From positions 1 through 32,397 of the forward strand of contig NCDY01000031.1 of NCBI GenBank assembly GCA_002280405.1: a DNA stretch of 32,397 nt, written 5' to 3'. The notes below the pieces were generated by a model. The model ran no database searches and was not told the origin of the DNA. It worked only from the letters and a program-made list of their open reading frames with translations. Shown piece after piece: positions 9,931 to 12,221 of this stretch. Source of the stretch: Rhodobacterales bacterium 32-66-9 (lineage in GTDB: Bacteria; Pseudomonadota; Alphaproteobacteria; Rhodobacterales; Rhodobacteraceae). The position numbers were made by a program, and so were the translations under genes. Position 1 is the first letter of the stretch. Each line of letters starts with the position of its first letter.

Positions 9931-10836
9931 CTAGGCCAGAACCATTGCCGCACAAGCCGTCGCCCGGGCCAGATGGCTGCGATGGATCGGGTCTTCGCGG
10001 GCCAGCCTCAGCGTCGCCCAGCCCACCGAAGCCAGGCTGCGGGCCAGGGTGCAGGCATCGACCATGGCCCGGTCCGTGGTGCCGTACCCCGCCATCAACG
10101 CGTCGCGCAGCAAGGGATGTTCGGGGTGCCGCACGGTCTGCAACAGGGCGGTGCCGAGGTCATAGAGGCGAAAGCCGAAACCGGCATCGTCGAAGTCGAT
10201 CAGAGATACCGAACGGTCGTTCACAAGTACATTCTCGCGCAGCACATCGGCATGGATCAGGCCGATGTCGCCGGCCAGACGTTCCCGCAGGGCGTCGCGG
10301 GCGCGGATCAGCACTGCGCGCTGATCGGCGGTGGCGGATGGGTGCTCCCAGAAACGGCCCCAGAGCGGCTGTTCGCCGACCAGACCGTCAAGGTCCCAGC
10401 GCGGGCGGGTGAAGTCATCAGGCAGTGCCAGGGCGTCGGTCGCCCGGTGCACCTGGCGCAACAGCGCCCCGAGCGCGTGGTAAAGATCGAGGATCCCGGA
10501 GATGGGGCGCGTGAACGGCAGGCTTGCCTCACCCAGGGCTTCCCCATCCATCCAGGCGAGTACCGAGGCATGGCGGCCGTCGTGCAGACCGACGAGCGGT
10601 CGTCCGTCCAGCGCGGGCAAGGCCGCCGGAACCGGAAGTCCGGCGCGCGCGAGTTCGGCGCACCACCACAGCTCGGACCGGATCGCCGCGGCGGACTGGT
10701 ATCCCGCACGGTGCAGGCGCAGCGCGGCGCGGGTTCCTGACGGCAGTGCCATTTCGAAGACATGGTTCTCGCGGTTGCGCAGGGTCCGCAGGATGCGACC
10801 GCCCCAGGCCCGTGCAGCGGTTTCGGCGGGGGTCAC
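9931..10836 (-). CDS. aminoglycoside phosphotransferase/choline-kinase-fold small-molecule kinase
   Basis: A 301-residue kinase-like protein of the APH family. The N-lobe has NRENHVFEM and an Arg-rich ALRLHRAGYQ segment. The hinge region reads VLAWMDGEAL. The Brenner motif IHADVLRENVLV (catalytic Asp in HAD) and the metal-binding LIDFDDAGFG are intact, so it is probably active. The layout resembles SrkA/YihE and homoserine-kinase-like proteins more than antibiotic kinases. It starts with GTG at 10836, overlapping the arfB stop by 4 bp (GTGA), so it is the second gene of an arfB operon. The substrate is unknown; a resistance role should not be assumed. Confidence 0.85.
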   Translation of the reverse strand: MTPAETAARAWGGRILRTLRNRENHVFEMALPSGTRAALRLHRAGYQSAAAIRSELWWCAELARAGLPVPAALPALDGRPLVGLHDGRHASVLAWMDGEALGEASLPFTRPISGILDLYHALGALLRQVHRATDALALPDDFTRPRWDLDGLVGEQPLWGRFWEHPSATADQRAVLIRARDALRERLAGDIGLIHADVLRENVLVNDRSVSLIDFDDAGFGFRLYDLGTALLQTVRHPEHPLLRDALMAGYGTTDRAMVDACTLARSLASVGWATLRLAREDPIHRSHLARATACAAMVLA

Positions 10837-11255
10837 TCTTCGTCGCCCACCTTGCCGCGCAGGACTTTCACCTCGCCGCGCGCGGTCTTGGCGGCGGCCC
10901 TGCGGCGCTGGCTGCCGAGGGTCGGCTTCGTGGCAATCCGGCGCTTCGGAGCCACCAGGGCTGCGCGGATCATCTCGACCAGTCGGGCGCGCGCGATCTC
11001 GCGGTTCCGCACCTGACTGCGGGTTTCATCCACCTGCAGCACGATTGCGCCCTCCAGCGTCCAGCGCCGTCCGGCCAGCTTTTTCAGGCGCGCCTTCACG
11101 CCGGGGGTCAAATGCGGCGACCGCTCAGCCTCAAAGCGCAATTCGACGGCGGTCGAGACCTTGTTGACGTTCTGCCCGCCGGGACCGGAGGCCCGCATGA
11201 AGCTTTCCGCAAGCTCCCAGTCGGCGATGGCAAGGGTTTCGGTGACGTGCAGCAT
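10833..11255 (-). CDS. arfB: alternative ribosome-rescue factor ArfB (peptidyl-tRNA hydrolase)
   Basis: A 140-residue release-factor-like protein (YaeJ/ICT1 family) that frees ribosomes stalled on non-stop mRNA. The catalytic GGQ lies in MRASGPGGQNVNKVSTAVELRF, about residues 26-28. The C-terminal tail is strongly basic (VAPKRRIATKPTLGSQRRRAAAKTARGEVK), the part that enters the empty mRNA channel. The domain that reads stop codons in RF1/RF2 is absent, as expected. An imperfect hairpin (11289-11319) lies about 35 nt upstream of the start. It is coupled by overlap to a kinase gene downstream. Confidence 0.94.
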   Translation of the reverse strand: MLHVTETLAIADWELAESFMRASGPGGQNVNKVSTAVELRFEAERSPHLTPGVKARLKKLAGRRWTLEGAIVLQVDETRSQVRNREIARARLVEMIRAALVAPKRRIATKPTLGSQRRRAAAKTARGEVKVLRGKVGDEE

Positions 11256-11336
11256 GGCCTGGCTATGGTGTGACGCGACAAAGCGGACGCGCCAAGAATT
11301 CCGGAAAAATCTTGGGCGCTGTCGGACGAAATAGAG

Positions 11337-11365
11337 AAAGGGCTGCCCTGCTCAGGCAACCCTTT
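11337..11365 (-). terminator. rho-independent terminator of the small minus-strand unit
   Basis: On the minus strand, AAAGGGTTGCC pairs with GGCAGCCCTTT over 11 bp around a 7-nt loop. One pair is a G.U wobble that forms only in minus-strand RNA; on the plus strand the same position is a C/A mismatch. The descending arm ends in UUUCUCUAUUU. The strand-specific pairing shows that the RNA is made from the minus strand. Confidence 0.75.
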
Positions 11366-11436
11366 CCGAGATCCAAGGAGATGGGCCAGTTAGGGCATCC
11401 AAATCCAATCGGTGGTCTATTTCCCAGGGGCTGCCC

Positions 11437-11493
11437 TTAGAAAATACGCCTCCCGACTGTCCCGACACCTCTCTCCAATATCACTCTAGACAC
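11437..11493 (-). CDS. 18-codon ORF with extended Shine-Dalgarno (candidate small protein or leader peptide)
   Basis: A GTG-initiated ORF encodes MSRVILERGVGTVGRRIF and ends in TAA. The 17 nt overlapping its start (11509-11493, minus strand) are an exact complement of the conserved 3' end of 16S rRNA (CTGGATCACCTCCTTTC). GGAGG sits 7 nt before GTG, the ideal spacing. A TTGACA box lies upstream at 11557-11552 and a terminator follows, making a self-contained unit of roughly 200 nt between the queuosine-precursor transporter and arfB. The peptide is basic and amphipathic-looking; I do not recognise it. It could be a functional small protein, a leader peptide or part of an sRNA. Confidence 0.5.
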   Translation of the reverse strand: MSRVILERGVGTVGRRIF

Positions 11494-11528
11494 TGGATCA
11501 CCTCCTTTCAAAAAGTTGCCGATGGGTT

Positions 11529-11557
11529 GAGCCTGCCACAGATTTTGTGTTTGTCAA
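11529..11557 (-). promoter_or_regulatory. putative promoter of the small unit
   Basis: A consensus TTGACA lies at 11557-11552 on the minus strand, immediately after the stop codon of the transporter gene. At 16-17 bp spacing the -10 candidate is CAGGCT/AGGCTC, which keeps the conserved A2 and T6 at 16-bp spacing but is otherwise weak. The -35 match and the position support independent transcription. Confidence 0.4.
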
Positions 11558-11563
11558 AACAAA

Positions 11564-12184
11564 TCACGCAACCCTTGCACCAAGCCTGGCGACTGCCAAT
11601 CGAAACGGCAGCAATGCCACCAGAGCAAGCAAGAGCTTCACCAACCAGTCACCGACGGCCAGCGACACCCAGAACGGAGCCTGCGGTCCAAGGCCCAGAA
11701 GCGGTGCAGCCGCCGTCGCCCAGGACACGTCATTCGTTGGCTCCAAGAAGGTCAGCGCGGCGGAAAAGGCGACGGTGAAGAAGATGGCCGTGTCCAGCGT
11801 CGAGGAGACCAGGGTCGACACCAGCGGGGCCTTCCACCAACCGCCTTGCCGCAGCCGGTTGAAGACCGAGATGTCCAGAAGCTGGGCACACAGAAAGGCA
11901 AGGCCGGAACCGATCGCGATGCGGAAGGTCACCAGCGGGCCGAACTCGCCGATGATCCGCGTGCCGATGAAGGAACAGAGTATTCCGGTGGCAAATCCGG
12001 CCAGCACCACGCGGCGGGCGGCGGCGGGACCCTGCAGCCGGTTCGTCAGATCGGTGATAAGGAAGGCAAAGGGATAGGTCAGTGCCCCCCAGGTCAGGAA
12101 CCTGCCCAGCGGGTATTGGACAAGGATGTTCGAGGCGACGACAATCGTCGCCATGGCCAGGACGCCGGGAAGAAGGATGCGCAT
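11564..12184 (-). CDS. queuosine precursor transporter (YhhQ/VUT family)
   Basis: An integral inner-membrane protein of 206 residues with about six transmembrane segments. The family imports 7-deazaguanine precursors (preQ0/preQ1 or queuine) for queuosine in tRNA. Family segments include ASNILVQYPLG, GALTYPFAFLITDLTNR (the TYP...DL motif), FIGTRIIGEFG, SGLAFLCAQLLDISVFNRLR and STLDTAIFF. The ATG at 12184 is preferred over an in-frame TTG at 12205 because GGAA lies 8 nt upstream of it. A small hairpin (12222-12236) is in the leader. The gene name is often given as yhhQ or qrtT-like; I assign none. Confidence 0.9.
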   Translation of the reverse strand: MRILLPGVLAMATIVVASNILVQYPLGRFLTWGALTYPFAFLITDLTNRLQGPAAARRVVLAGFATGILCSFIGTRIIGEFGPLVTFRIAIGSGLAFLCAQLLDISVFNRLRQGGWWKAPLVSTLVSSTLDTAIFFTVAFSAALTFLEPTNDVSWATAAAPLLGLGPQAPFWVSLAVGDWLVKLLLALVALLPFRLAVARLGARVA

Positions 12185-12221
12185 GCTGCTTTTCCGTTTT
12201 GACAAGGTCGCGGAGACTTGA

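Follow-up and report, generated by a model that had tools for sequence, protein, structure and literature searches.

A putative small mRNA of the rreR type, with an extended Shine–Dalgarno sequence, beside arfB in a Rhodobacterales genome

The window, i.e. the whole stretch of 32,397 nt from Rhodobacterales bacterium 32-66-9 that was analysed, contains a compact series of expression signals on the minus strand, flanked by a Vut_1 transporter gene upstream and by arfB downstream. The parts of this unit and its two neighbours are as follows.

11564–12205, minus strand: Vut_1 transporter gene (PF02592, E 1.5e-27), the next gene upstream, a neighbour
11552–11557, minus strand: −35 box TTGACA (in genus loci, TTGACA 23/24 and TTGACG 1/24)
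11537–11549, minus strand: palindrome-like block CACAAAATCTGTG inside the promoter spacer, a candidate operator (genus and family loci)
11530–11535, minus strand: −10-like CAGGCT after a spacer of 16 nt; its second and last letters (A and T) are retained across genus loci
11493–11509, minus strand: extended Shine–Dalgarno (SD) sequence GAAAGGAGGTGATCCAG, 17 nt complementary to the 16S rRNA 3′ end (genus, family, and part of the class)
11474–11497, minus strand: start-codon hairpin UCCAGUGUC/GAUAUUGGA, 9 bp, overlapping the 3′ end of the SD (folds and family alignment)
11437–11493, minus strand: 18-codon ORF (rreR type), peptide MSRVILERGVGTVGRRIF, with a GTG start at 11493–11491 and a TAA stop at 11439–11437
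11375–11393, minus strand: conserved box CTAACTGGCC-CATCTCCTT (folding; family members)
11329–11367, minus strand: intrinsic terminator, a hairpin (11367–11335) with a T-rich tail (folds; CTATTTC after the hairpin)
10833–11255, minus strand: arfB (RF-1 domain; PF00472, E 1.5e-20), the next gene downstream, a neighbour outside the unit

All minus-strand elements claimed in the initial annotation (TTGACA, the 17-nt 16S complement, GTG, 18 codons, the terminator hairpin, and CUCCUU, located at 11380–11375) were found in the sequence, and the adjoining gene on the same strand does encode an RF-1 domain, as expected of arfB. The terminator ends approximately 75 nt ahead of this gene. The initial annotation had also described a self-contained unit; the promoter-like boxes and the terminator are present, and a standalone transcript is predicted from them. 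The 5′ start of the RNA is placed at approximately 11523 on the minus strand, and we infer monocistronic transcription of the unit as an RNA of approximately 190 nt. When the whole window was compared with Rfam at the gathering threshold, no match was obtained. The block in the promoter spacer has the form CAC(A/C)AAATCTGTG in 24/24 genus loci and a looser form, CAC-N6-TGTG, in 27 of the 70 other family loci. A regulator may bind at this block (11537–11549). The conservation of CACAAAATCTGTG exceeds what a spacer requires.

The reverse complement of GAAAGGAGGTGATCCAG agrees with the 16S tail, as found in relatives, over exactly 17 nt. Plasmid records from Rhodobacter, Gemmobacter, Cereibacter, Sulfitobacter, and Ruegeria contain the 57-nt tail used for this comparison with zero mismatches. 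A search of the organism's own 2.9-Mb assembly gave no match to this tail, and complementarity to its own 16S rRNA is therefore presumed from the relatives; no intact tail was found in the 25 genus genomes, where two matches carry two mismatches each. The match extends into the GTG start codon, whose G is its 17th and last base; this refines the start spacing given initially. The 14-nt core, with one mismatch allowed, occurs only once in the 2.9-Mb assembly. The possibility that the match is a degenerate 16S fragment was rejected, since the similarity ends at 17 nt and the remainder belongs to a conserved unit.

A 238-nt block was matched over most of its length in 24 of the 25 genus genomes, including that of the organism itself, and the other genomes with a long match show 85–97% identity to the unit. 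The exception, G017 (70% complete), has a match spanning 29 nt only. A 21-nt motif, searched with up to 2 mismatches, was detected in 115 of 149 family genomes (reversed control pattern, 0), and loci were retrieved from 70 of these 115 genomes (30 + 40). A looser exact pattern was present in 58 of 385 class genomes, and 60 of 398 genomes matched in a sample of the phylum, i.e. 60 of 135 alphaproteobacterial genomes and none of 263 from other classes, as counted from the listed rows. The RF01867 model (E ≤ 0.001) identified 61 of 289 class genomes, with 9 above the cut-off, and among 14 control genomes matched Caulobacter vibrioides alone. At least 119 stretches were obtained in a scan of named genomes; among the matches listed, all are Alphaproteobacteria by name except two ‘Proteobacteria bacterium’ MAGs (L108 and L122). 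Sphingomonadales are numerous among the relatives listed, and a recognisable copy is absent from most sampled class genomes at these search settings. One alphaproteobacterium, G036, carries the motif twice (C1:805112 and C1:2922049), while the other matching genomes of the class and phylum searches have one each. In three Azospirillum loci (L147, L187, and L204) and in L064, the same extended SD precedes an ORF of 56–59 aa whose product resembles small secreted proteins (MSHGA...LLTAG(V/I)A(N/S)A...); this looks like another gene type using the extended SD.

The reading frame was compared in 94 family elements, the off-target L239 being excluded from 95. Exactly 18 codons are present in 87 of these ORFs, and the remainder have 20 (3), 24 (1), 26 (2), or 31 (1) codons. 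Codon 19 is TGA in 40, TAA in 25, TAG in 22, and another codon in 7 elements; TGG is never seen at this position, even though each of the two letters is variable (Fisher p 8e-9 for distinct ORFs, kinship ignored). Stops are found in 0/94 elements at codon 17, at codon 18, and at the same place in each shifted frame. The conserved-frame check suggested in the initial annotation thus gave a positive result, with ORF length and stop position kept in the family and all three stop codons in use, and this retention of length with interchangeable stops points to translation by ribosomes. It also argues against a non-coding sRNA or sponge that sequesters 30S subunits or pairs with other RNAs and in which the ORF is incidental. 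Such an RNA would fit the observations that conservation is highest in the 16S complement, that the RNA is structured, and that the relative CC2171 is classed as an sRNA in Rfam. However, the best 30 relatives by the RF01867 model, with ORFs of 18–30 codons, also begin with ATG (16) or GTG (14), counts that lean to GTG because the model consensus has GUG and the locating motif (up to 4 mismatches) includes it. We consider a purely non-coding function unlikely.

The amino acid sequence behaves differently from the frame. In 79 distinct ORFs of the 87 with 18 codons (pairs with up to 18 differences pooled), pN/pS was 0.83 in frame versus 0.71 and 0.83 when the frame was shifted, a comparison that is a weak test over 18 codons under RNA constraint, and the entropies at codon positions 1–3 were 0.83, 0.85, and 0.85. 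No synonymous excess or other coding signature was detected in the substitutions of these 79 family ORFs, and a peptide function deduced from codon statistics was rejected for lack of a signal. Residues S2, R3, L6, E7, V10, G11, and T12 are well conserved in the family. If the 18-aa peptide were the functional product, with the long SD merely securing its expression, the conserved frame, start, and stop and the near-identical peptides at all 24 genus loci that bear the element would be accounted for, but the conserved residues are specified by nearly invariant codons (AGA, TTG, GAG, and ACA) and the in-frame pN/pS is no better than in shifted frames. Outside the family, the peptides vary by lineage (MSHCH...TWIVAS, MSHGSA, MSSDF, and VSYLKRCHLAGIAR) and have little in common beyond MS(H). 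Furthermore, according to PMC7217052, two small proteins, one with 18 aa from Dinoroseobacter shibae and one with 14 aa from Bradyrhizobium japonicum, are unstructured in solution, which is still compatible with a function on binding. Taken together, the chance that the peptide is the functional product appears small; the peptide seems to be under less constraint than frame, length, and RNA shape, and it is probably not the product on which selection mainly acts. The abundantly translated micro-protein envisaged initially finds no support, given the lack of a synonymous excess and the reportedly weak translation of the Bradyrhizobium relative.

The predicted transcript in the window folds at −84.4 kcal/mol (z −3.7 versus shuffles). 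Among 91 family members (the other-type ORFs L250, L252, and L257 and the off-target L239 being excluded), the start-codon hairpin has 9 of 9 pairs in 66, 8 in 17, and 7 in 8 members. The final SD bases form part of its 5′ arm, and the 17-nt complementarity spans both the hairpin arm and the region of the SD core that can pair with the downstream box: CATCTCCTT (11383–11375) is able to pair with AAGGAGGTG of the SD. The CUCC core, C(A/G)(T/C)CTCC, is the best SD partner in 71 of the 91 members, 24 of which belong to this genus, and the mean best score of SD partners in family members is 6.89 versus 5.14 for mononucleotide shuffles. In 71/71 family members tested, the ORF has a terminator-like hairpin behind it, a count made without a shuffled control. 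An RNAalifold consensus for Rhodobacteraceae was built from 63 of these 71 sequences; L216, L219, L223, L236, L237, L248, L259, and L264, which are mostly divergent or long, were excluded by hand. This consensus recovers the start hairpin (7 of its pairs) and the terminator, and the SD/CUCC helix is absent from it. In the terminator stem, both-sided changes occur in 8 of 9 pairs, whereas the start-hairpin pairs of the consensus have changed almost only on one side. Nearly all changes in the start hairpin and the SD/CUCC pairing are one-sided because the SD and the start hardly vary.

A different arrangement is found in other orders, where many of 37 hand-picked representatives fold with a long stem between codons 2–7 and bases ahead of the terminator, leaving most of the SD unpaired; the stem is absent from some of these folds, e.g. 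those of L091 and L168. This stem is also absent from the Rhodobacteraceae consensus and is skipped in the alignment of the window with RF01867. Of the 158 distinct non-family units with a length of 170 nt or more, 14 had no good terminator, and the other 144 were used to examine partner preference by swapping arms. Own arms pair at −9.1 versus −6.6 kcal/mol for swapped arms (90 distinct arms; Wilcoxon p 4e-12, kinship ignored), and the own partner beats 95% of swaps in only 23 of 90 cases. The initial annotation had proposed that a conserved frame would mean a peptide and compensatory stem changes an RNA; given the both-sided changes in the terminator and the preference of the long stem in other orders for its own partner, the second outcome is positive as well as the first. 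In four Bradyrhizobium loci (L121, L133, L136, and L196), a 14-aa ORF (VSxxKRCHLAGIAR) contains its own anti-SD, GUCACCUC, and in the Bradyrhizobium folds the SD is paired with GUCACCUC within the ORF.

The gene order around the unit is well kept within the family. Vut_1 lies upstream on the same strand at 24/24 genus and 29/30 family loci; downstream, again on that strand, arfB is present at 19/24 and 23/30 loci, respectively (42/54 together). Within approximately 1.5 kb downstream, arfB is missing at 5/24 genus and 7/30 family loci, and a contig end explains this only for L020. Outside the family, 179 loci were considered, of which 163 are distinct and 152 include 800 nt or more of flanking sequence on each side. 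At these loci, arfB was found nearby in 3/179 cases, always upstream on the other strand, and downstream of the unit in 0/179. The neighbours examined there (10 proteins of 7 loci, 4 without a Pfam match at E 1e-8, together with 12 query proteins) are RF3, MutS, SMC, TPR, ExoD, AstE/AspA-type, or unassigned genes, which are common only to close relatives. A function deduced from neighbours (arfB, RF3, MutS, TPR, or others) was rejected because the neighbours examined change by lineage. These data bear on the idea that the unit is a cis-acting leader (attenuator) of arfB, through which ribosome rescue would respond to free 30S subunits or to stalled translation. Family loci tend to retain Vut_1, the unit, and arfB in this order and on one strand, and the spacing of approximately 75 nt in the window would suit a leader; against this, a constant position upstream of arfB was found neither in the family, given the loci without arfB, nor outside it, and the ORF is followed by a terminator-like hairpin in every family member tested. 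We regard the leader function as very unlikely. The leader-peptide sensor suggested for arfB in the initial annotation would be possible within the family, but the arrangement outside it speaks against such a role. As neighbours vary outside the family, the unit looks standalone and its association with arfB local.

Considering these observations, we think it probable that the unit is a small mRNA of approximately 190 nt, transcribed from a promoter of its own up to its own terminator, which binds 30S subunits tightly, is poorly translated, and has its fate set by ribosome occupancy. The evidence in favour comprises the 17-nt complement and the position of the start codon, the frame kept without a coding signature, the start hairpin, the CUCC partner, the compensatory changes in the terminator, and the varying neighbours, whereas the absence of the SD/CUCC helix from the RNAalifold consensus, the one-sided changes, and the conservation of much of the peptide count against it. 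According to this proposal, a free 30S subunit would use its 16S 3′ tail to displace the internal pairs of the start hairpin and of the SD/CUCC helix. Invasion by the tail would open the cage around the start codon and hold the RNA, with slow initiation; since the full SD helix would run into the start codon, the 30S–mRNA complex is proposed to be tight but a poor initiator. The RNA would then sit on the 30S subunit with weak translation through the 18 codons, and its stability, lifetime, and output would follow ribosome occupancy. Of the functions offered initially, the capture of 30S subunits by an RNA is the one closest to the reported co-sedimentation of rreB with 30S; for the present unit, such binding is predicted.

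An SD of 15–17 nt is far beyond the needs of initiation, yet it is retained across several alphaproteobacterial orders. Because the long SD usually occupies one site per genome and the peptide behind it drifts, these units provide a natural probe of the effect of over-strong 16S pairing on the ribosome. With a kept frame and stop, a peptide without coding signature, and a caged start, the question of ribosome sensor or micro-protein becomes directly testable in laboratory strains.

The unit looks like a member of an already described but little-understood type, a small messenger with an extended SD, whose relatives are scattered in Alphaproteobacteria. It is almost certainly the rreR described by Hahn et al. 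2017, to which rreB corresponds in Bradyrhizobium. In that study (RNA Biol 14:1353–1363), rreB is said to co-sediment with 30S subunits, its translation is reportedly weak and hindered by the long SD and the GTG, the start codon is said to affect the stability of the transcript, and the name rreR (18 aa) was reportedly given for the Rhodobacter/Roseobacter lineage. Like rreR and rreB as reported, the unit has an SD of 16–17 nt extending up to the start codon, a GTG start, and a short ORF, and a small monocistronic transcript is predicted for it. The reported definition of at least 16 nt of 16S complement directly ahead of a short ORF compares with 17 nt here, and the reported ORF lengths are 18 aa in the Rhodobacter/Roseobacter lineage, as in 87 of the 94 family ORFs, and 14 aa in Bradyrhizobium. 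No difference was found between the family units and the reported description of rreR; Sphingomonadales, which are among the relatives listed here, are not known to be included in Hahn et al. 2017. The reference list of PMC7217052 includes that study, and the unstructured proteins mentioned above, with 18 aa in D. shibae and 14 aa in B. japonicum, are presumably rreR and rreB, respectively.

The Caulobacter sRNA CC2171 (Rfam RF01867) shares the initial GAAAGGAGGUGAUCCAGUGUCU and the terminator at the end, and the window aligns with RF01867 end to end (E 8.6e-5, 30.6 bits); the score is below the gathering score of 75, and the long stem of the model is skipped. It is conceivable, and put forward only tentatively, that rreB, rreR, CC2171, and the MSHGS-type units of sphingomonads all represent a single alphaproteobacterial 30S-reading RNA that varies by lineage. 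In this view, a short translated frame would lie in a refoldable RNA, the start codon (and in some lineages the SD) would be guarded by internal pairs and freed by a free 16S tail, and the RNA would serve to report on free 30S subunits or to buffer them, the peptide being a by-product.

More distant parallels also exist. In the extended SD motifs of Staphylococcus aureus, as presented in PMC13009471, an extension of the SD helix near the start affects start-codon choice, as proposed here, but those motifs are on ordinary mRNAs rather than on a dedicated small transcript, which is predicted here, and the pairing lengths are compared loosely. Leader peptides of the peTrpL type (PMC7298713) likewise involve a very short translated ORF ahead of a terminator; unlike them, our unit lacks a run of sensing codons and, outside the family, is not followed by any fixed operon. 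Term searches in PMC4842269, PMC5082802, PMC4117421, and PMC10117765 returned no passage on the element. As far as the searched literature shows, the start shared by rre units and the Rfam CC2171 family, the presence of such units in Sphingomonadales and other orders, the signature of a frame without a peptide, and the differing ways of guarding or presenting the SD are new.
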